Source of the DNA: Aquila chrysaetos chrysaetos
Taxonomy: Eukaryota; Chordata; Aves; Accipitriformes; Accipitridae
Assembly: GCF_900496995.4 (NCBI RefSeq)
Contig: NC_044009.1
Coordinates: forward strand, 35,673,505 to 35,737,504
Length of the DNA stretch: 64,000 bases
Direction of reading: 5' to 3'
A program made the translations under genes and the position numbers. The notes below the pieces were generated by a model, which was given only the letters and a program-made list of their open reading frames with translations, was not told the DNA's origin and ran no database searches. This document shows, piece by piece, positions 19,201 to 63,741 of this stretch (position 1 is its first letter; each line of letters begins with the position of its first letter).

Positions 19201-22200
19201 ACCAGCGGCTCCACGCCCAGGTGCCGGACCTCGGCGCCGCGCGGGGCCGGCGCGTTTGCTTGCCTTGGGGTTCCCTGCGGCTGCTGCCAGGCAGCAGGGC
19301 GGAGGTAGGGTCCCCGTGCGGGGAGGCTGGCATCCGTCTCCTTCTCCACCACGGTCTGCTGGCTGCCCGACCAGCTGGAGCGCTCCTCCGCCTGTGACAG
19401 GGCCAGCACCGAGGTTGGCGTCGTGTTCATGGAGGCGTCCACGAGGGTGTCGGACCCACCTGGAAGGAGAGGGGTGAGCCGACACGGGGTGCCTGCGGGG
19501 ATGAGCCCAGCACCCTGCTCGGAGAGGGCTGAGCCACCACGGGGTGTCCCGAGCAGCACCCTGCTGCCCCAAGCCCTCTCCCCTTTGCACGGGCGGATCA
19601 CAGCTCCCCCCGCAGTGGAGACCCCCAAGGCTGGGCCAGCAGAGCCCTTGCGGGGGGGCCATGCCCAGCAGCTGGTGCCGGGGCTCGGTGCCAGCCGGGT
19701 GCCCCCTGCTCACCCGTGGGGGTGCTGAAGGCCGTCTCATCCTGGAGCTCGCTGCGCTGCGTCACCTGGGGGTCGCTGGGCTCATCCTCGCCCGTCTCCG
19801 AGTCTGGGGGGGTGGGGGGGGGAGAGCAGGGGGTGAGGGGACACGGGGACAACAGGCCAGGCTGGTGCTGCCCCTTGCAGACCCACCGGCTCCAGGGGCA
19901 GGAGAGCAGTTCCCGGGCAGCTCCGGGAGGAGGCAGCGCCGGGGCAGGGGGCATGACTGTGACCTGTAGGGACAAGCTGCCAGCAGGGAAAGGCAGAGGT
20001 GGGAAAGTCCAGCAGGGCAAGGGCAGGCAGGGGAGGGCAGGCAAAGCGGGCAGGAGCAGCGTTAGATGATGGGAGGAAGGGAGATGGTGCCGGCAGTGGG
20101 AATGTGGCTGGCAGAGGCGGCGAGGGGATGGGGAGGCAGGGCTGGGGACGGTGGCAGTGATGGGGCAGGGTAGCAGGCTGGGGCACAGGGCCCGCTCTGG
20201 GGATGGGGCTGGCATTGGGCAGAGGTCTTCCTACCGTAGCTTTGTTTCCTGCAGGAGCGGAAAACTTCGCTTCCATAGGGGCAGCAAGAGAGAGAGAGAC
20301 ATCAACACCCGGTTATCTGCCCGGCCTGCAGAGACGCGGGGGGGCAGCGGGGCGGGACCTTGTCCCCAGCATCTCCCCACGCTGCCATGGGGCAGGGACC
20401 TGCCAGGGCAGCACCTGTGTGGGCCATGCCAGCACGGAGAGCCTGGCACCCTGTGCCAGGCTTCAGGTCCAGGGATGGGTCCAGGATTGGGCGTTTGCCC
20501 ATCTCAGGACTCCACAAGGAGCACCCCATGCCCTGCCCAGCCCCATGGCAGGGGCCAAGCACCCACAGAGTGTAGAAACAGGTTTGGCACCCCCAGACTT
20601 CCCTACCACATCTCCACTCCACACCCATGTTCACTGCACGCCACTCCAGCGCTGCACACAGACCCTCCTCACCCACACACTGTCCCACCTGCGCAGTGAA
20701 TGGCACCATCCCCTCCCCATGCCATGGCCACATCCTGCCCGGCAGGACAGCCACCTCCTGTCCCCGGAGCTGCTGGAGCTGCCCCGCAGGATGGCATCAC
20801 CATTGTAGCATCCACACATCCACGTGCTCCGCAGGGCACTGCAGCTCGGGGCTGGACCCCTCAGCCCGTGCCCCAGCTGGGTGCTCCTGGGGGTGCTGGG
20901 GCACACGGACACATGAGTCCATGTGCAAGCACCCTCTCTCTGGCATGTACAAGTGCATCCCCTACTCCATCGCTGGCAAGTGCTGCATGATATGGCCATG
21001 CCCCACAGCACGGCCCCGGTTGATAAAGCAGGGATGCTCAGGGCAGGGCATGAGTGAGAGCCTCCCCACACACAGGATGCAGCCAGGCCAGATCAGTGCC
21101 ACCCTAACGTCCCATCCCCGGAAAGCCGACGCTGCGCAGCCAGAGAGGGCCAGACTTTCCTCCCCGCCGCTGCCCGAGCCCTCGCAAGCTGCTGCAACAG
21201 ACTCCTGCGGCAAGGGACGTGTCCCCTGCCCACCACCGCTCCCCTCCACTGCACTGCCATGGGGCGGTGGGGGGGCCACGCGGCTCCCCTCAACCCCAAG
21301 CCACCCCTCCGCAGCCCGGCACACTGCCAGCTGCCCCGGGCACTGCCACCGCACCAGGGTCCCCAGCCCGGCCACGACAGCTGGCAGCCCCTGAAGAACC
21401 GGAGCTGCAGGGCCAGGAGCAGCCCAGCCTCGCGGGGGACACTGGGAACCCCTGGCTGACCGGGACCCCATTCGGGGCTGGCGAGATGCAGCCCAGCCCT
21501 GCCCAGCCTCTGCTCGCTGCCCTCCCGCGGCACAGCGGTGGGGCTGGACCCCGTCTCCGCGCACTTGGGGCGGCGGGGGGAGCCGGGTCCTGGTAACTCA
21601 ACGCACCATGCGTGAAGCGCCCGAAGCGCCGCGAGTGGCCGGTCTTCTGCAAAGGAAAAGAGAAGAGAGTGTTACCCATGGCATGGCGCTACGCGCCTGC
21701 TCACGCACGCACACTGCTGGCACGGCACACCCGCACGCACACACCCCATCATGGCACATGCAGCCCCGCTCACACCCACAATGGCTCACACGAGCACACT
21801 GGCACGGCACACGTGGTGCCGCTCACACCCTCCCGCTGGCAGGGCACACCCGGCACCGCTCACACGCACACTCACACACACACATCCCCCGGCTGCACAC
21901 CCACGGGGTACCCACAGGCACACACCCCCGCGCACGCAGACAGGGATGGGTGTAGGTGGACACGTGTAGCGCATGCCCAGCCATGCACACACACACTCAC
22001 ACACACCTGTGCACACCCCCCCCCCCCCCCGTGGTGATGGTGCTGTGCACCCCAACCTGTGCCAGGGGGGGTGACACTGTGCCCCCCAGTCCTATGCCAC
22101 TGCCCGTGCCTGGGGAGTGACAGCCCTGGGCAGCCTGGCTGCCCCGGCACCACTGCCTGCAGCCAGCACCGCCTGCAGCAAGTTCTTTGCCCGGGCAGGT

Positions 22201-25200: not shown

Positions 25201-28200
25201 GGTGGCGGGGGGCGAGGGCAGCCGCGGGGCGGGGGGGGGGCGCGGCTGGGGCGGGCACACGTCCTCCCCCCCCGCCGGCTTTGGCTCCACGGCACCCAGG
25301 GGTGCGAGCCCCCTGCCCGGCAACGCGGCTGTACCACTGTCCCCTGCCATCCGTCCATCCTGCCCCACCGCCTGGGCCGGGGGCCGCTCTTCTCTCCCGT
25401 GCTCAGCACCGTGGGGCACAGCCCACCACCGCGGCTCCCACACGCAACCCGACGGGGACAAGAATAACACAACACACCACGCCAGCGCTGCACGCGACTG
25501 CCCTCCACGCGCTGCCCCCAAAGTGCCCCTGAATGGGGCAGCTCCACAGCCACAGCTGCCAGAACCCCGCACACAGCAGCACAGCCGCATGGTGTGCCAT
25601 GGCACGGCCCAGCCAAGACCCAGGCTCACCAGCACTCTGCCAGCCTCCGCTCAGTCCCCCACATCCTCCAGCCATCGGCAATGCAGAAAGGTTCCCTTAC
25701 CAAGACACGGGTGTGGGTCCGAGCGCTGCTAACCTGCCTGCACACGAACGAGAGCTAATACAGGCACAGTCTTTCACAGCAACCGCCCTGGCCCAGCACA
25801 GCACGCGCCACGGCATGAGCCCCCCTTGCAAACCACGCAGCCTCCAGCCCCAGGCACCCAGTGCCCTAAGGCAGACCTTGCACCCCACTCCTCGGGTGCC
25901 TCAGGACCCACGTGGGATGGCAGGGCTGGACTGGTCAGCCCTGGGCTAGCATCAATGCTTTGTGGCTGGTGGGGACGCAGGTTTGACCGGGGGAGGTAGG
26001 CCGTTGTCCCCGTCCATGTTGCATGACACACACAAGACCTCCCGTCGTGCTGGGGTGAGGACCCACGGCACAGCTCAGGGCAGGACTGGGTGCCCAGAAC
26101 TGAGCTGCGATGGGGTTCCCGGGTCGTGGGCAGAAGCTGTGGTTGGGGATCCCCGGTGAGGCTGGTCAGGGCCATAAAGACCTATTAGTGCTCCGGGGTG
26201 CTGGCACGAGCCTTCCCCAGCCGAGCGTCCCCAGCCCTGCTGGCCTGTCCCTGTTCTCTGGGTGACGCTGCAGATAAGCCAGAGGGGCAGTCCCAGCCCC
26301 ACAGCCTCAATGGGGCCTTTCCTGCCTGCCATGCTCCCATAGCTCTCGGTACCCTGCATCGCCAGCTCACCAAGCCTTTGAGCCCCACGGCACCCATCAG
26401 CCCCCTTTCCAGGCTCCTGGAGAGGCTGCCAAGGTCCCAGGCCCACCGGCTGTCTGCGCTGCCCCCTCCCACTGCAGAGCATCCGTAGGGACGCTGCTGG
26501 AAGCCTCCCCACCCAGCGCGTGTCCCTGTGCTGCTCACCTGTCCCCTGGGGAGCCGGTCACCCCATGCGGGGCTGCACACAGGCATCACGCTCCCCACGA
26601 CGCCTGGCAGCTCCAGCAGCTTTTCTCCGCTTCCCCTCCCAGCCCATGACTCCCAACGTGAGGCTTTTCATGGCTCCATAATAACTTGCAAATTACCCAG
26701 TACAAAAGGAGCTGTTTATACAACATTTCTGACAGTCCCACAATTTGAGTGATGCTGCGGGGTTTCCGTGGAGACCCTGCACGTCAAGCGAGTCCCACAA
26801 ATGCCAGAGCTGGCACTAAGGGAATCTCCTGTCAGAGCCAGAGGACTCTGCTGGGCCCCCCCCCCAGCCCTGAGTGGGGACAGAGATGGGTACCCCTGAG
26901 CCAGGGATGGGTAAAGGGCTGGGCTGTGGGGCTCATGTCTGCCAGGGTCCCAGCACCCAGGGTCTCCCTGCCAGGTGCTCTCACCCAGGCTGTGCATGCC
27001 TGTGGTCCTGCCGCAGACCTGCATAGCCTGTGCCTTTTTTTTCACAATCAAGTGGGATAAAAGCCTGGTCAGGGATGCCGGGAAGGAGCACTGAGGCTTG
27101 GGCTTGGCACACAGTGGTGCCAGGGCAAGGGTGCTGCCACCGCAGCACCTGCAGGGACAGCCCCAGGGCTGGCCCCAGGGAGGGACCACAAGTGCCCAGC
27201 CAAAACGCAGTCATTTGGGTATCCTCCGACTGCCATGTCTGCTGCCCCCTTGGCCACGGCTCCTGGCTGGCGGGGCACACAGCCCTTCCCAGCAACTGTG
27301 GCTCTGCTGCTCGGCTATCCCTCAGCGAAAGCCCCAGAAGTGGCTGTGGGTTGCCCCAGAGATGCCGTACCCCTGGAAGCAGCTGGGTCACCTCTGAGGG
27401 GCTGTGGCTGCAGTGGCGCCCAAAAATCCTTTCCAGAGGCAGCAGCACCTGCAAATCCCCCCGCAAGGGCAAAGCCGGAGTCCCTGCAGAAGGCGTCCGG
27501 TGGGAGGTGATGGCAGTCTGCACCCAGCGCAGCCCCTCTGCCATGCCCTAGCCCGGGGGCAGCCTGGGCACTGCCCTGCTCCACTGCAGGACATGGACAC
27601 AGGGCAGGGGAGGGGGGCCAGCGCAGCCACGCCATGGACAAGGGGCAGAGCCAGACCAGGTGGCCTCATTGCCACCCAGCTCCAGCTTTGCCTGCTGGAC
27701 ACGCACTGGCCCCGAGCGAAGCAGATAGCAAACACTTGCTCAAAATGCAGCATTAATTACGCTGCTCAGAGAGCCTCGGCTCCCCACACCTTGCTGGGCG
27801 TCCCCGGCAGCTCTGCACGGATCCTGCCCCTGCACTGCAGCACCAGCTGGGCACTGGCCACCCGGCCCCAGCCACCAGCCCCCTTGTCTCGGCGCTTGAA
27901 TAATTGATGGCAGCGGGTGTGTGCAGCCATCTCGGGTAGCAGGAGGTCTGGGCATGAATCTTTCATGTGTTTGCGACTCCTGGAGCTGCTGGGGAGGGTC
28001 TGCAGGACATGGGGATGTGCTGGGAGCCTGGGGAGGTGGGGACCATCCCCAGCCCTGTCCCCAGGGGGAAATAAATGCAGCGGGATGGCCCTCATCACAG
28101 GGCAGGGCAGCACCGCAGCAGCTTTCTGGTTCTGGGGAAGAGCAATGGTCTGCTGTGACCCCTCTCCCAAGGGCCAGGGACACCCCAGGTGCCCTCCCCA

Positions 28201-50800: not shown

Positions 50801-53016
50801 CGGTGCTTTGGGCTCTTCTGGGAAGTTCCTGCCGGCTCAGTGCTGAGCTTCCCGGGATGGGATGGCACTCAAGCTGGTGTCCTTTCTCCTCTAACGCTTC
50901 AGGCCTTGATTGACTCGTGCGCGACACCCTCCTCCCTCTCCCAGGAACCCAACGTGCGTCTCATCGCGCTCTATGACAACGAGGAGGTGAGTGAGGGGCA
51001 CAGCCCTGGGGTGGCTAGCGCAGGGAGGGGCTCCATGTTCTTTGCTCTCCCCAAGCCAAGCCTAGCAGGAGATAGATCTCAGGCCCCGGCGGGGCAAGGG
51101 GAGGTTTGCTCACCCCCTGTGGAGCATGGCCCAGGCAGGGGTGGGAAGCACTGGTGTGGTTGGAAGCACTCTGCTGGCTTTGGGGAGCCCCCTGTCACTC
51201 AGTCAGCCCCTGGGGTGCTGGGGGGGGTTGCACCATGTGGGTCATGCTGACGGTGGTCCTTGGCAGGTAGGGTCAGAGAGTGCACAGGGCGCGGAGTCCT
51301 TGCTGACGGAGCTGGTGCTGCGCCGGATCTCGGCATCGCCGCAAAACCTGACAGCCTTCGAGGAGGCTGTGGCCAAGTCCTACATGATCAGCGCCGATAT
51401 GGCCCACGCTGTGCACCCTAACTACGTGTGAGTAGTCTGAGCTGTGCCATAGGCCAGGGTAGCTTGCCCTACCGGCTGGGGGGACGTATCCCCATTGTTC
51501 CCCAGGAAGTGCAGATAGGATAGTCCTTGTCGCAGCAGGGAGGGAGGGCTGTAGCATGAAACTCCTGCTTCTCTTTTGCAGGGACAAGCATGAGGAGAAT
51601 CATCGTCCGGCCTTCCACAAGGTGAGGGCAGCCCTCTGCTTTGGGCTGGGACGGACGCTGTACGTCTCTCCTGCAGTGCTGTGAAACACCCAGCTGCTCC
51701 CTGGAGCACGGTCCTGGGGGGCAACTCAACGGCACTCACATGGGAGACATTTGTGCTGCAGCACGATTTGGGCATGCCACACATCTGGTGTTAATCAATT
51801 GGGACCGCCGCCTTGGCCCTGGAGCCCTTCCCTGCTCTGAGCTGGGGCTGTCCCTATCCCCACGGATCATCCAGGGAGGGGAGAATGGACTGGTGGGTTG
51901 GGCGGGGATAGCATTGCCCGGGCACGGGTGTTTCCAGACGCACCAGCTATCCCCGGTGTCAATCGTGGGCCTGCGGTGCCTTCCCTTGTGCAGGGCCCCG
52001 TCATCAAAGTGAACAGCAACCAGCGCTACGCCTCCACGGCTGTCACCGAAGCTGTCATCCGGGACATCGCCACCCGTGTGGGTGTCCCTCTGCAGGTGAG
52101 CGGGGCTGGGCGAGCCCTCCGTGAACGTTACAGCTTGGGCCGCCGCCCTGCCCTGCGTTCAGGAGATGGGGGCCTGTGCCAGACCCCCACCCCTCAGTTA
52201 CCGTGCCCGTCCCCGCCAAGGTCTGCACTGCCTCCTGCTCTGGGGCTCCAGCTCTGGGGCTGCCTCGGGGAGCAGGCTCGGGAACAGGAGGGGAGGGCCC
52301 GGCCTGAGCACATCCCATCTCTGGGGGATTTTGCATCCTGGTTCAGGGATTGTGCTGCTTCCCCGTCCCAGGTTGCCTCCCTTCGGGCCCTGGGGTCCCA
52401 GCTGGGATGCCATCTGGGCAGCGTGGGCAGCTGCTGAGGCCGTGTCCCCGTGCAGGAGTTCATGGTGCGCAACGACACGCCCTGCGGCACCACCATCGGC
52501 CCCATTCTGGCCTCCCGCCTGGGGCTGCGCGTGCTGGACATCGGCTGCCCGCAGCTGGCCATGCACTCCATCCGGGAGATGTGCTGCACCTCGGGGGTGC
52601 TCCAGAGCATCACCCTCTTTAAGGTGAGACCCGTGTCCCCCATCCTGCGCCAAAGCCCCCTCCCTGTTGCTCCACATCTCCCGCATCCCCGTGTCCCCAT
52701 CCAGTCCCCATCCTTGGGGCTGAGCCCGGCCATCCCGCCGGTACTGGCTGCTTCCGGAGGTGCCCCCTCGCATCCCAGCCTTCCCTGGCGACTGCCATCC
52801 CCAAATGGTTCCTATGGCAACCGGTGATAGCCTTGAGTCAGTGATGGGTTACTATGGCAACGCGGTCCTGCTCTCTGCCAGGAGCTGCCTGCTGTGACGC
52901 CCCGCGCGTAACCCAACGGGGAGCCGCTGCCTGTCCCCCCACCCTGACGGCCTGTTTCCTTCCAGGGCTTCTTCGAGCTCCTGCCGGCGGTCAGCAGCAG
53001 CCTGGTGGTCGACTGA
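47843..53016 (+). CDS. DNPEP: DNPEP, aspartyl aminopeptidase (complete coding region, 476 residues)
   Basis: Cytosolic M18 zinc aminopeptidase releasing N-terminal Asp and Glu, for example from angiotensin peptides; forms a dodecamer (family knowledge). Fifteen coding exons: 47843-47848, 47980-48067, 48164-48252, 48341-48454, 48802-48927, 49066-49196, 49565-49649, 50122-50229, 50465-50542, 50903-50986, 51267-51427, 51582-51621, 51994-52095, 52456-52623, 52966-53016. The joined frame is 1,431 nt. Zinc and catalytic residues sit in GAHTDSP (His), LCLADTQPA (Asp), LYDNEEVGSES (two Glu), [13 protein letters not shown] (Asp) and [10 protein letters not shown] (His). The end [16 protein letters not shown] aligns with human. 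The first coding exon holds only ATG CAG, as in mammals, where the protein also starts Met-Gln. Human DNPEP has 475 residues. Confidence 0.97.
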
Positions 53017-53079: not shown

Positions 53080-53973
53080 CAGCGAGTGGTCTGTGAGCGT
53101 GGCTGGGGGTGACGGATCTGGGTGCCCCTGGGGACTCCCGTGGCTCCCACCTGTGCTCTCCCCTGAGGCCAGGAGCGGGAGGTGTTCACCCCCCCCCCAA
53201 CAGCGGCCCCCTCAGTGCCGTGTCCTAGCTAATGGGCAGAATGTTCCTCCTGCCCCTCCCTGGCAGAGCTGGGGAGAGGATGTCCCCTACCTCCTGCAGC
53301 ACCGGGGCTGCCCCCGTCCCCAGGGGGGGACTGAGCCTGCCCTGCCGTGACGAGGGGTGTGCTGTCAGGTCCTGCCAGCCCCCCGGCTGCCGCTGCTCCC
53401 TGCTGCCAGCGCCCTGCCCGGGGTGGGGGTGTTCCCTGCTCGCACCGGCTGGGGGCTCGGGGGCTGCCGGCTCCCTTCCCGCCCTTCCCGGGGCGGGGCC
53501 GATGGGCGGGGGTGTGAGGGTGTGGCCCGGCGCTCGCCGCTCATTGGGCTGTTCTCAGGGCCGTGGCCCGCGCGGGAGCCTGTGGGGCCGCAGGGCTGGG
53601 AAGGGACAGCCGGTGATTGGTGGAGGCGCTGCCGGCGCGGTGTCACGCCCCCGGGGGGCGTGGCTCGCCTCCAGGGAGGCTGCGATTGGCGCGGTGCTTG
53701 GCCGACTCCCCACCCCCTCCCCCGGGGCGCGACGTAATTGGCCTCGCTTGATAACAGGGGGGTGTGAGCCTGACGTGCGGGTGGAGGGAGGGAAAGAAGT
53801 CCGGGTCTCTGACTGGCTGTCCGTCGCGGGGGCGTGGCGCGGCAGCAGCGGGCCGCGCGCCATTGGCGGGGAGGCGGCGGTGGGCGGGGCGCGCGGCGCG
53901 GCGGGGCGCGGGTTGGCGGGCGGCGGCGGGGGCGCGGCCGGCGGGTGCGCCATGGTGCGGCCGTGAGCGGAGC
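53080..53973 (+). promoter_or_regulatory. PTPRN: PTPRN promoter CpG island with five inverted CCAAT boxes
   Basis: ATTGG occurs at 53543-53547, 53616-53620, 53685-53689, 53737-53741 and 53862-53866, spaced about 50-125 bp, in CpG-rich DNA with GGCGTGGC and GGGGCGGGGC boxes. A TGACGT half-CRE lies at 53771-53776. No TATA box. NF-Y arrays of this kind drive many TATA-less promoters, and CRE elements fit a gene responsive to cAMP in secretory cells (inference). No RESP18-like exon lies in this gap. Confidence 0.65.
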
Positions 53974-54076
53974 ATGGGGCGGCGGCTCCTCCGGGCGCTC
54001 CTCTGCCTCCTCCTCCTGGCCGGCCGCGGGCTGCTGCGGGACGGCGGCGCCTCCGCTACCGCCACCGCCGCGCACG
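53974..54076 (+). CDS. PTPRN: PTPRN exon 1: signal peptide
   Basis: ATG at 53974 starts [19 protein letters not shown], a classical signal sequence, followed by Ala/Thr-rich residues up to a GTGAGA donor at 54077. A second upstream ATG (53952) opens only MVRP and stops, so it is a tiny upstream frame of four codons. Confidence 0.9.
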
Positions 54077-57000
54077 GTGAGACCGGCGCCCCGGGTAGGG
54101 CGGCGCCCCGGGCAGCGCGGGGGCCGGGGCCGGGGCGGCGGGGGGGGCCGCTTCCCGGGGAGCGGCAGGGCAAGGGGGCTCCGCGGCCGGTGCTCTCGCT
54201 GCTGCCGTGGATGCTTGTCACGGCGCGCGGCCGCGGGCCTGGCTCCCGGTGGAAGGGCGGGAGAAGGTAGCTTGGTACCGGGGCCGCGGGTGCGTCACTG
54301 GCACCGGGGGGCGCCTCTCTCCTGGGGCGGCCGGGCTGGTGGCGGTGCTGGTGCTGGCCCCGGGGCGCCCCGCCGGCTGGAGAGTTGGTGCCGCCCCCGG
54401 GGCCGGCTGGACGGGACGGGACGGGAGCGGGGCGGTGCTCGCTCAGGGACCCTGCCCGGGGCAAAGCCGGTGCCCGGGGCTGCCGCAGGGATGGGGAGCC
54501 CGGGGCTGATGCTGGGATGGGGAGCCCGGGGCAGCGGCCCTAGGCGGCGGCTCCCTCCGGGACCCCGGCGCCCTTTAGCCGCCCTCCGCCGGTAAGGGCG
54601 GCCCGGCCCGGGCCGCGAGGGCGGGCCAGTGCATCTGCTGTCCTCCAGCTCGGCCCGTGCGGCCCCTGCCCGGGGCTCTCGGAGACCCGGGTGCCGCTGC
54701 CGGTAGCGGAGCTGCAGCCCCCCCGCACGGCACGGCCCCGGCGACCGCTGACTCACTACCGGACGCCCGGGGCTGCTGCGTCCCTCGTCCTCCGGTGGGC
54801 CCGGGAGCGCCGGGACGGGTCCGGCCGCACCGCGGGGGCCCCGTCGTCTCCGGGAGCAGGCGGGGGCCGGGACCGGAGCGGCTGCCACCGAGCCCCGGTC
54901 CTGCCTGGGGGAGTCTCCCGGGGCCGGTGCCGCCGCCCCTCCCGGCGGAGCGGGGCGTCCCGGCGAGAGGCGGCTGCGCCGCTTCAGCACCGCGGACAGC
55001 GCCCGCCCGGCCCCGCCGGCCCGGCCCGGCCCCCCGGGGGTCGCCCCTCGGCACCGGGGTCCTGCGCCCCGCACCTGCGTTGGCCCCCGCCCCGGGGGGA
55101 GCGGACCCGTGGGTGCCCGGGTTTCGGAGACCCCCATCCCCACTTGCCCCCTTCCCCCGCGGCGGGCTCGGCGGGCCCCTCCCTCCCCTCCCCCCGGTTG
55201 TTTTCTCGTTCCTTCCTCGCCATCCGGGGCTGAGTCATCGCCTGCTGCCGTCTCGCTGCTGACGGTCTTGGACCGAGACGGGGGGGGGAGAGGAAGGGGG
55301 AAGCCGCCCCCTGCCCAAGTGCTGCCCCCCGAAGGGGTTGGAGAGAGACATACACACACACACACACACACACAGCCCGCTGCCTGCGTGCTTTGGGGTC
55401 CCCCTCGCAGGGAGAGTGGGTCTCTGGTGGCACAGGGCTGTGTCCCTGCCTCGTAGTGCCACATGTGGGAGGGCAACAGATGTGGTCTTGCAGGTCTCTG
55501 CCCCCTCAGCCTTCCCTTCCTAACTGCCGGCACCCCAAAAAACTCCAGGCCTCCCCCTGCTCCCCAGAGCCAGGGGCAGGCTTTGTACACAGCCCCCATC
55601 TTAGCTTTGAGGGGGGGGGGGCAGGGAAGGCTGGCATCGAGGCCCTGCCCTGGGCTACCAGGCTGTGCCCCCCACCACCATCACCACCCGTGGCACGTTC
55701 CTAGATAGTTGGGGTCCCCAAGTAGCTGGTGATGAGCAAATGCGATTGGAGTCCCCCTTGGATGCTGTGCTGACTGGCCTGTCTGTCTGTCTGTCCCAGG
55801 CTGCCTGTTTGACCGGAGGCTGTGCTCCCCCCAGGAGGTGTGTGTGCAGGGTAAGTGGTTAGCAGGGGTGCAGGGATCCCTTCTTCCTTCCCAAGGGGGT
55901 GTGGAGAGTGCAGGGCTGCTTGCAGGGGAACTTGGGGTGCAATGTGGGGGGCCGTGGCAGGAGAAACGTGAAGCTGTGCCCGCAGACCCTCACCCCAGGG
56001 TGTTCATCCATCCGGCCCCACCGCCTCCCCTCTCTTGCAGATGGGCTGTTTGGGCAGTGCCAGGTGGGCTCCGTGCAGGACAGACCCTACTTCCAGGTCA
56101 CCTCTCCTGTGCTCCAGCGCCTGCAGGATGTCTTGCGGCATCTCATGGCACAAGGTGAAGGGGGGAGCATGCGGGGACTCACTGTGGTCTGGTGGGGAGG
56201 GGCTGTCAGGCAGCATTGCCTGGTGGCACTAGGGCTGTCTGGGGTCCTGCTGGCCCAGGGGCCAGGGTGGGCTGAGAGGGGTCCGGCTTATTCTGGGAGG
56301 ATCAGGGCCAAATGCAGGCCATGGGACACAGGGTCAGGACACCAGGGCAGCTTCCTGTGCACTTGCCCCATGGTCCCCAGGCCTCCTCTGAGTCTCACAG
56401 CCCCCTCCTGTGGCAGGGCTCTCGTGGCAGGACGGCATCACACAGTATGTGATCTCGCAGGAGATGGAGCGCATCCCCCGCCTCCGCCCGCCGCCATCGC
56501 TGGAGCCGGTGGCCAGGGACAGGTAAGGCAGCACCAGCCACCAGCCTGTGAGCAGAGCCTGGCAGGGCAGCAAGGGCTTCCCCCCCCCAAATGGGGTTTT
56601 GGGGGGGACCTCCCCGTTACCCAGGTGAGTCACCCTGGCACTGTTTGCCTCTGAGGTTCCTGCCCCTCCGTGGCTCCCCCCGGCGAGCCCCGCTCCCTGC
56701 GGACCCCGGCCTGCCAGCGGCTCAGCATCTGGGGCAACCTCCGCCGCTGCTGTCCTCCCCCCTGGTGCAGCGGTACCTGGAGCACCTCTTGCTGCCCCCG
56801 CCACCCCAGCTGGGCTACGAGGAGGCTCTGCTCAACCCCTACTCCTACCACAAGGTAGGCCATGGGGGTGAGCCCCCTTCTCCCAGGCGGAAAGGTAGAG
56901 ATGGGCAGGGGGTTGCTGCACTCCCAGCACCCTCCTTCTGCTGGTGCTGGGGTGCCCCTCTGTCTCTGGGGTGCCCTGCCATGGGGTGGCAGGGGCCCTG

Positions 57001-60000: not shown

Positions 60001-63000
60001 AGCCCCTCCCCGTGCTCCTCTGGGGACCCCCAGGAACAGTCTCCTGGGGGAGAAACAGGGGCTGGAGATGGGGGACTGAGCCTGCCTCCTGTGTTTGCAG
60101 CCTGGGGAGGGCAAGTGGTGCAGCACCTCCCCAAACCGGGGTCCCTGTTCCCCACCCTCCTGCTCTGTGGCCGTAGCCGTGGGCAAGGAGGAAGGAAGGG
60201 GGGGACCTTGGAGGAGGAGGAGGCCATGGAGAAGGGGTGGCCTGGCCACCGAGGCAACCCATCTCCCTCAGCAACATGTGGAGCGTCGCTATGGCAATGC
60301 CTTTTGATGTGACGAGTGGCAGGAGCTGGGAGAGATGGCAGAGATGAGGGAGCTGGAGCTCAGAGGAGGCTGTGGCAGCTTTGCGAGCCCTCTTCTGCAC
60401 AGATGTCCCCAGTCCAGACCAGCTTGTGCTTTTCCTTCATTCCACCCCCAGGCTCTGAACTTGGTGGGACTGGTGCAAGATTTGGGGAAGGAGGGACACA
60501 GATGCAGGGGGACAGCAGTGCCTGGGCAGGCCTTGGGACAGAGGTCCCTTCTGTCCCCGCTGACATCTCCAGCCCTTCTGAAACCTGCAGGGCTGCTCCT
60601 GCTTGGGTGCCCCCAGGACCTGGGCGGTGCTGGTCCTGGCGGGTACCCCTGGCTGCAGGGCTGGCTGGGCCCTGGCAGCAGTCACACTGGCCCACGGGCG
60701 CTGGGGCTGGCGACGCTGGGGGGGGCAGGTGGCAAGGGGACCCCTGGGGCAGGGGCATCCCCAGGCGGTGATGATGATGAGGTAGGTGATGATGATGCAG
60801 TGTTCCCTCGGTGACCTCATCAGGCTCGTAGCCAATGGGAGGCCGTGGCAGTGAGGTAATGCTGGGTTCTGGCACCTCATTGGGTGCAGGGTATTTGGTG
60901 GTGGTGATCCCCCAGCATCCCTGTGCTGCCCCAAGACCTGGCTGTGGGGGAGCAGCATCCTGATCACCAGCGGCTCTGGGACAAGGCCCTGGTAGGGGTC
61001 TTGGCCGTGGGGGGGTCTTGGCCTTGGAAGGAGTCTCATCCAGCAAGGGCTCAGCACCATCCTGTCCCAGCATGGGACTGGCACGCATTGGGCTGTGCCT
61101 CCCAGCCACAGGGAAGGAGCCCTGGAGGCCCTGCCTGCAAGGTGGCAGGGGCTGCTCTGCATCCCAGCTGAGGAGAGTGATGGGGAGGACCTGTCCCCCA
61201 GCCACCACAGCTGGGATGGCACCAGCCCTCCGGCAGTGTCGGCACATTCCCCCATGTCCTGCCATGGAGCAGTGGCTGCAGGGGAGAGCCAGCCCCATCT
61301 AGGGAAGTTCCCTGGGGGCAGCAATTGCTGCCCTGGACCCAGCGCTGCAGTGGCCCATCCTTTGCCATTAACCCCTTGGGCTGAATCTGGCCCTCCTTGA
61401 CCTCCAGCTGGGCAGGAGCCCGTTGAAGCCGAGTTCCATGGGACTACTACCTGCCCTGGAGGGGGGCAGTCCGGGCTGGGGCTGCCCTGGGGAGCAGTCC
61501 TGGGTGCTGGGAGTAGGGGAGCAGCAGGTTGTGGCTGCCTGGGCTTGGCCAGGCTCTGTCCCCTCCTGCAGCTCCAGGGACACACCAGTGTGAGCAACGT
61601 CCCATGCGACACGCAGGTGGGTGCACTGTGCCTCACCCTAGTGACACCCAGCACCCCAGTGACACCAGCTCCGCCCCAGCTGAGGGTGGTGGGAGAATCA
61701 GCACAGCACCGAGTGCCCTTGCTCTGTTTTAGCCCCCAACAACCCCAAATGTGGTGCAGAATGGGGTCGATGCCCCCCCCGCTAACCCTTGCTCGGCTCT
61801 GCCCCCAGCGAAACGAGGCTGCTGCCTACTCGCGCCCATCCCACTTTGGGGACAGCTTCCACTCAGTGCTGCTGACCTTCATCGCACTCGCCTGCGTGGC
61901 AGGAATCGCCATCGCGGCCGCCGCGGCCTTCTGCCTCCGGCGCCATGCGAAGCAGCGGGAGAAGGAGCGCCTGGCTGCCCTGGGGCCCGAGGGTGCTGCT
62001 GACACCACCTTCGAGTACCAGGTAGGACCCCATGGGATGCGGGACCCTGCGGGATGCGGCACTGCTGCGCCAGCGTCGCTCAGGGTGCGCAGGGCTGCCC
62101 TGCGGCGGTGCTGTGCCCAAGGGACAGGGCTCTTCGTGGGGTTCCCCAGGAGCTGTGCCGCCAGCACATGGCTGCCAAGTCTCTCTTTGGCCGTGCTGAG
62201 GCACCAGCGGCACCGGCAGAGACCTCACGGGTCAGCAGCGTCTCGTCCCAGTTCAGCGATGCCCCGCAGCCCAGCCCCAGCTCCCACAGCAGCACGCCCT
62301 CCTGGTGCGAGGAGCCCGTCCAGTCCAACATGGACATCTCCACTGGGCACATGATCCTGGTGAGCTGGCCTGGTGGGGTGGCAGTCCCCCTCCCTGGCCC
62401 CCCATGTACCCCCCGGGCTGCTGGGCTGACCCCCACCCCTCTGCCCTAGGCCTATATGGAGGACCACCTCCGCAACCGGGACCGACTAGCCAAGGAGTGG
62501 CAGGCTCTCTGTGCCTACCAGGCTGAGCCCAGCGTCTGCTCCATTGCCCAGAGTGAAGCCAACCTGAAGAAGAACCGCAACCCCGACTATGTGCCCTGTG
62601 AGCATCCCAGCCGCCCTGCCCCAGGGACCGGCTCCCAGGGCCGTGGCAGGAGGGCGGTGTGGGGCACGGGGATGCTTGCGGCCACAGCAGGCTGCGGCAC
62701 GGGTTTGCCCGCAGCTCCCCTGGGCACTCGCCACATCCCCTGGCCTCCGTTTCCCCAGATGACCACGTGCGGATCAAGCTGAAAGCCGAGAGCAACCCGT
62801 CCCGCAGTGACTTCATCAATGCCAGTCCGATCGTGAGTGATCACTGGGGGCTCCTGCCCACCCACCCCGCTCTGTGATGTGCTCAGCCCAGGCAAGGCTC
62901 CCCCTCTGGGATGGAGCTGGACTGAGCTCACATCCCTGCGGGCTACAGATGTGAGCAATGTGCCTGCCCCATTGCTCAGACATGGTTAAAACCCATTTCC

Positions 63001-63741
63001 CTCCTGGCTGTGGCACCCAAAGCTCTCTCCCCAGCCTTCCCATCACCCCTGGAGTATCCCCCCGCTCCTCCCAGTGTCACTGACCCCTGGCCAAGGAGCG
63101 TGCGGTCTGACATTCCCTTTCCCGCTCCAGATCGAGCATGACCCACGGATGCCAGCATACATCGCCACGCAGGGGCCGCTGTCCCACACTATCGCCGACT
63201 TCTGGCAGGTGAGCATCACCCAGCTGTGCCAGCCCATCGGGGTCCCTCTGGGTGCTGCCAACCAGATGGGTCACCGCGGCTTGGCCGCCCTCCCGCCTGG
63301 GCTGTCACCCAGCAAGTGACACCCCACATGCCTTGCCTGCAGATGGTGTGGGAGCATGGCTGCACCGTTATCGTCATGCTGAGCCCGCTGGCCGAGGACA
63401 GCGTCAAGCAGTGTGACCGCTACTGGCCAGACGAAGGCTCCTCTCTCTACCACATCTATGAGGCAAGTGTGACCGGTAGCCTGTGGCAAGGAGCATCCTC
63501 CAGCTGCTGTCCCGCCGAGTGAGTGCAGCCCCCCTGCCTGGCGCTGACGCCCACCGGCTGCTTCTCTCGGGCAGGTGAACCTGGTGTCGGAGCACATCTG
63601 GTGCGAGGATTTCCTGGTGCGCAGCTTCTACCTGAAGAACGTGCAGTCGCAGGAGACCCGCACCCTGACGCAGTTCCACTTCCTTAGCTGGCCGGCCGAG
63701 GGCATCCCCGCCACCACCCGGCCCCTCCTCGACTTCCGCAG
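53974..63741 (+). CDS. PTPRN: PTPRN (IA-2/ICA512), receptor-type pseudophosphatase of dense-core vesicles (3' end right of window)
   Basis: Type I membrane protein of insulin and neuropeptide granules, stabilising granules and regulating secretion; catalytically dead PTP fold. Nineteen coding exons seen: 53974-54076, 55800-55850, 56041-56154, 56417-56522, 56656-56854, 57039-57363, 57573-57689, 57818-57897, 57975-58261, 58762-58848, 59001-59080, 59324-59388, 61809-62021, 62150-62359, 62450-62597, 62759-62832, 63131-63208, 63343-63462, 63575-63741. About 874 residues. Features: signal peptide (1-34, [13 protein letters not shown]), Cys-rich RESP18-homology region ([19 protein letters not shown]), dibasic convertase site VEKKS (about 432), mature ectodomain [10 protein letters not shown] to LQTGVGE-like end, transmembrane helix [17 protein letters not shown], and PTP domain [13 protein letters not shown] onward. 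WPAEG replaces catalytic WPD. The frame runs into the window edge before the HCSxGxGRT-like loop. Confidence 0.96.
54983..55003 (+). promoter_or_regulatory. PTPRN: RE1/NRSE (REST-binding) element in PTPRN intron 1
   Basis: The 21-bp site consists of TTCAGCACC, two spacer bases, and GGACAGCGCC: both half-sites match the canonical RE1 consensus without mismatch and with canonical spacing. It is about 0.9 kb downstream of the PTPRN exon 1 donor, inside the CpG island. REST silences neuronal and neuroendocrine genes elsewhere in the body, which fits PTPRN expression. Confidence 0.9.
55352..55374. repeat. AC dinucleotide microsatellite
   Basis: About 11-12 perfect AC units in PTPRN intron 1. Confidence 0.95.
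57818..57897 (+). CDS. PTPRN: PTPRN exon 8, with two possible in-frame donors
   Basis: Acceptor after CTTCCCAG at 57817. Two GT donors keep the frame with exon 9: GTGGGA after 57897 (used in the main model, giving a Gly-rich [11 protein letters not shown] segment) or GTGGGT after 57852 (15 residues shorter). Sequence alone does not decide. This is in the poorly conserved luminal linker before the [11 protein letters not shown] segment. Confidence 0.6.
59389..61808 (+). other. PTPRN: PTPRN intron 12, largest downstream intron
   Basis: 2.4 kb. Holds a run of GATGATGATGA (60767-60800 region) and the possible cassette exon at 61572-61616. I see no recognisable RNA gene. The host-gene microRNA known from human PTPRN (mir-153-1) was not found in the visible introns. 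Confidence 0.6.
61572..61616 (+). CDS. PTPRN: Possible 45-nt PTPRN cassette exon (luminal juxtamembrane)
   Basis: In the 2.4-kb intron between exons 12 and 13, CCTCCTGCAG at 61562-61571 is followed by 45 open bases and a GTGGGT donor at 61617. Translation is [15 protein letters not shown], phase 0 on both sides, so inclusion would add 15 residues including a Cys and an N-x-V/S-type Asn just outside the membrane. I do not recall an equivalent in human PTPRN. It is a candidate only. Confidence 0.4.
63463..63574 (+). other. PTPRN: GC-AG intron of PTPRN (between exons 18 and 19)
   Basis: The only donor that joins TATGAG (YE) to GTGAACCTGGTG (VNLV) in the conserved frame is GAG followed by GCAAGT, a GC donor with otherwise perfect U1 complementarity; the acceptor is GGGCAG. 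A GT six bases further would insert Ala-Ser and has a poor context. Confidence 0.8.

Follow-up and report, generated by a model that had tools for sequence, protein, structure and literature searches.

In rodents, Ptprn is reduced by REST expression in INS-1E cells as well as in RIP-REST islets (PMC3447792), and it is reported as strongly repressed in the hrPC12 line (PMC4639699), which is taken here as a high-REST line. In mouse Ptprn, Eya1 occupies a proximal intronic REST element described as "highly conserved" (PMC9561260). Known here by its description (PMC9561260, PMC3447792), the mouse element is intronic and proximal, like the eagle site analyzed below, and belongs to a REST-responsive gene. 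Treatment of cultured mouse hepatic stellate cells with valproate, an HDAC inhibitor, increased Ptprn, whereas the changes in vivo disagreed (PMC3866247). For human, Table 1 of Wu and Xie (2006, PMC1794552) gives mir-153-1 with the host gene PTPRN, the NRSE TTCAGCACCGCGGACAGCGCCA and a distance of 1060; only NRSEs that are also conserved in mouse, rat and dog entered the human set of that paper.

As for birds, a review (PMC10605157) describes that N-tubulin and Ng-CAM decrease when REST is expressed constitutively in the spinal cord of chicken embryos, and therefore REST repression works in birds at other genes. Our literature search, with subscription papers mostly outside its scope, found no avian PTPRN RE1 and no bird PTPRN binding or expression data, which is weak evidence of absence; a search on REST ChIP-seq at PTPRN intron 1 likewise found nothing.

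Here we analyze an RE1/NRSE in PTPRN of the eagle Aquila chrysaetos chrysaetos. The window is the whole stretch of 64 kb that was analyzed, and all coordinates are given relative to its first position. The eagle site is probably a true regulatory switch of a type described before, both the element and its logic being known in mammals. On the simplest account it represents the avian copy of the PTPRN RE1 already known, and we infer that in birds, too, it is bound by REST and mediates silencing.

Identity and layout of the host gene

The following features are referred to throughout the text:

53500..55250, no strand: CpG island over the promoter and exon 1, reaching through most of intron 1; GC 0.72-0.82
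53974..54076, + strand: coding part of PTPRN exon 1, from the ATG to the donor G/GTGAGA; hydrophobic, signal-peptide-like; read from the sequence
54077..55799, + strand: PTPRN intron 1, containing the RE1; donor and acceptor read from the sequence
54983..55003, + strand: RE1/NRSE (REST binding site), TTCAGCACCGCGGACAGCGCC; exact 21-bp consensus with GC spacer
55800..55849 (end approximate), + strand: PTPRN exon 2; read from the sequence
62450..63741 (end set by eye), + strand: PTPRN exons, first part of the phosphatase-like domain; PDB match 2i1y

The spliced phosphatase-like region scored 414 bits against its closest PDB chain, 2i1y, which is titled only "Receptor-type tyrosine-protein phosphatase" and which we take to be IA-2, as compared to 327 bits against PTPRN2 (2qep). 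The mature ectodomain scored 135.6 bits against PTPRN and 63.8 bits against PTPRN2. Judged by similarity in these two regions, the gene is PTPRN (IA-2), and the scores rule out PTPRN2 as the host gene. The FDRRLC run of exon 2 is also encoded, in our by-eye reading, by a mouse Ptprn qPCR primer given in PMC3866247. A Pfam search with the 34-residue exon 1 stretch revealed no domain, and a PDB search with one transmembrane/juxtamembrane stretch yielded 0 matches. The acceptor AG of intron 1 occupies positions 55798-55799. The gene scores, together with the donor and acceptor positions, bear out the assignment of the site to intron 1 of PTPRN that was made in the initial annotation of this DNA. 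The gene encoding aspartyl aminopeptidase (DNPEP) was found at 52438-53016; its end precedes PTPRN by about 1 kb, and both genes are on the same strand. In mammals, RESP18 sits between DNPEP and PTPRN.

Calculated in 500-bp windows, the CpG observed/expected ratio across the island at 53500..55250 is 0.6-1.0. The site falls inside this promoter island, as had also been proposed. The region 5' of the PTPRN ATG contains five ATTGG boxes (inverted CCAAT) at 53543-53866 and a half-CRE TGACG at 53771. Human PTPRN is listed with a full CRE that precedes the inferred start by about 114 bp. The eagle window contains no exact match to this full CRE, and only TGACG half-sites were observed near the PTPRN start.

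The RE1 site and its chance expectation

The consensus used is that of the initial annotation, and it is consistent with the published sites in Table 1 of PMC1794552. The sequence TTCAGCACCGCGGACAGCGCC at 54983-55003 (+ strand) has 0 mismatches to the 21-bp consensus TTCAGCACCNNGGACAGCGCC. Both halves, left TTCAGCACC and right GGACAGCGCC, are intact and separated by the canonical two-base gap, and thus the perfect RE1 with two complete half-sites reported in the initial annotation is confirmed. The site lies on the coding strand of PTPRN, 1,009 bp from the ATG. At a cutoff of at most 3 mismatches it is the sole consensus match in the 64-kb window; the same cutoff gave at least one match in 9 of 100 dinucleotide shuffles (mean 0.09). 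Two partial arrangements were observed at a distance from it, namely a lone left half at 19721 (- strand) and an odd-gap arrangement CAGCACC-5 bp-GGACAG at 27143.

The number of exact matches expected by chance was estimated using Markov models (orders 0 to 3), with either the window or the island as training sequence. Counting both strands, these models predict 1.0e-6 to 4.2e-6 exact matches in 64 kb, in agreement with the earlier judgement that a chance full match in 64 kb is very unlikely. One could still suppose that base composition produced a match without function, given a GC content of about 80% in the island and a motif that is itself partly GC-rich, as are its flanks. However, only 3e-8 to 1.4e-7 exact matches are expected in the 2.1-kb island alone, the AT-containing halves TTCAGCACC and GGACAG are fully retained, and human PTPRN is listed with the identical 21-mer (PMC1794552). 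We consider a chance or composition-driven origin extremely improbable.

A scan with a REST weight matrix had been suggested as a check. The matrix was built from 13 distinct human sites, that is, the 16 rows of Table 1 in PMC1794552 minus the PTPRN row and two duplicates; the sites in that table are predicted, part of them with ChIP support. The site at 54983-55003 ranks first in the window with a score of 29.0 bits, as compared to 17.8-27.5 bits for the 13 training sites and to a best score of 25.5 in 200 simulated windows (first-order, 2-kb blocks). The next-ranked candidate RE1 in the window, at 61491 (- strand) with 18.3 bits, was dropped as not above chance, since this score was reached in 20% of the 200 simulated windows.

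Given these results, the 21-mer is very probably a functional high-affinity RE1, and REST bound there would keep PTPRN and the downstream mir-153 off.

Comparison with the human PTPRN site

Conservation was checked by direct comparison with one species, human. The eagle site and the published human PTPRN NRSE are identical at 21 of 21 bases, the GC spacer included, and differ at the 22nd base, which is C in eagle and A in human. Both sites belong to the same gene and lie within it at a distance of about 1 kb from its start, with mir-153 further downstream. The human distance of 1060 bp is presumably counted from the start of the host gene, because the miRNA itself is about 14.1 kb away according to the coordinates in PMC1794552. 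In eagle, mir-153 follows the RE1 at about 9.4 kb, as compared to about 14.1 kb in human. Judged by the 21-mer, by the host gene and by the similar distance from its start, the human and eagle RE1s appear to be orthologous.

Hence, a published mammalian REST target site is extended to a bird with 0 of 21 bases changed. The reading of the avian PTPRN site as a REST silencer, put forward in the initial annotation, is supported, REST occupancy and silencing in birds being what this comparison would predict. The prediction is less new than was implied there, as the mammalian counterpart is already in print. The 21/21 identity speaks for a control of PTPRN by REST that is ancestral to amniotes and probably extends to mir-153; the picture of how REST works is unchanged by the avian site. 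More tentatively, and with somewhat less than even confidence, we suggest that the PTPRN RE1 may be an essentially frozen amniote element, whose optimal 21-bp sequence has been held for about 300 million years. The single site would then have to silence PTPRN, as a dense-core-vesicle gene, together with mir-153, which is predicted to repress REST, and PTPRN would be a REST feedback hub in birds as in mammals.

mir-153 and the proposed mechanism

A search against Rfam yielded a mir-153 hairpin (RF00650, 89.2 bits) at positions 410-481 of the adjoining sequence L009, equivalent to window positions 64410-64481. Since the hairpin begins 410 bases beyond the window end, the Rfam search of the window itself gave 0 matches. 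The hairpin is located 9.4 kb 3' of the RE1, on the same strand and downstream of the exons encoding the PTPRN phosphatase domain, and therefore the same RE1 should gate mir-153 too. We infer that mir-153 lies within PTPRN's own transcript. One copy of mir-153 was found in the genome-wide search, in which scores were computed for 63 out of the 420,952 first-look candidates; a second copy is possible.

The mechanism that we propose is as follows. In REST-expressing cells, the zinc fingers of REST would bind the 21-mer approximately 1 kb inside PTPRN. Bound REST would recruit Sin3/CoREST-HDAC corepressors, a general property of this factor. The corepressors would deacetylate the CpG-island promoter, and PTPRN along with the mir-153 hairpin in the same orientation would be kept off. 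In neurons and endocrine cells, with REST absent or low, PTPRN would be expressed.

Binding of REST at this position could have other outcomes. The main regulated product might be mir-153, acting in a REST/mir-153 feedback loop, with repression of PTPRN being secondary. The same-strand hairpin downstream fits such a loop, as do the filing of the human NRSE under mir-153-1 and the prediction of REST and CoREST as mir-153 targets by Wu and Xie (PMC1794552). However, regulation of mir-153 is compatible with PTPRN silencing if one promoter serves both, as Wu and Xie assume for host genes, and rodent PTPRN is itself REST-responsive; we regard a merely secondary role of PTPRN repression as unlikely. 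The location of the RE1 1 kb inside the gene, away from the start, would also suit a boundary element or a regulator of an alternative promoter that recruits REST without being the main-promoter silencer. Given that the published rodent data show a net lowering of Ptprn by REST, this seems very improbable, and silencing of the main promoter is the outcome that we favor.

Other exact RE1 sites in the eagle genome

In total, 18 exact RE1 consensus sites were found in the 1.23-Gb genome and 0 in a control search with the reversed pattern, whereas composition models predict 0.016-0.066 exact sites per Gb. The GC spacer is the commonest one, present in 10 of these 18 sites, and for this reason its presence in both human and eagle PTPRN adds little as evidence.

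The other 17 exact sites fall into 16 loci. For each locus the four top-ranked open reading frames, cut at 260 letters, were read. Neighboring genes were recognized at 4 of the 16 loci, and all are neuronal or neuroendocrine: TUBB3, VGF, MAST1 and BARHL1. At the other 12 loci no gene neighbor was recognized, even among up to seven further open reading frames near each site. The assignment of TUBB3 (locus L024) is based on a PDB search, in which the five best matches were all tubulin beta-3, with Pfam also supporting tubulin; an MC1R-like sequence at the same locus is presumably avian. A stretch beside one RE1 matched Pfam DUF1908, and we take it to be MAST1-like. The names VGF and BARHL1 should be considered our assumption; a Pfam search with the VGF-like and BARHL1-like stretches gave nothing. 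Vgf and Mast1 are among the genes tabulated as REST-associated in PMC4371837, and PMC10605157 cites an inhibition of VGF by REST.

The RE1 at the TUBB3 locus resembles that of PTPRN in having the exact consensus and the GC spacer. The gene is a different one, and the RE1 lies in CpG-rich sequence 5' of the last TUBB3 coding exon.

Three further sites have an unusual arrangement. Two exact RE1s, at L013:4963 and L013:5018, are 55 bp apart on the same strand of one CpG-rich stretch. The exact RE1 at L020:4990 is inside a long open frame that would translate to ALSSVLKS on the strand opposite the motif, and may be coding rather than regulatory. At L018:4980-5020 an exact RE1 immediately follows a TATAAA box 5' of the VGF-like open frame, as if placed on the transcription start.
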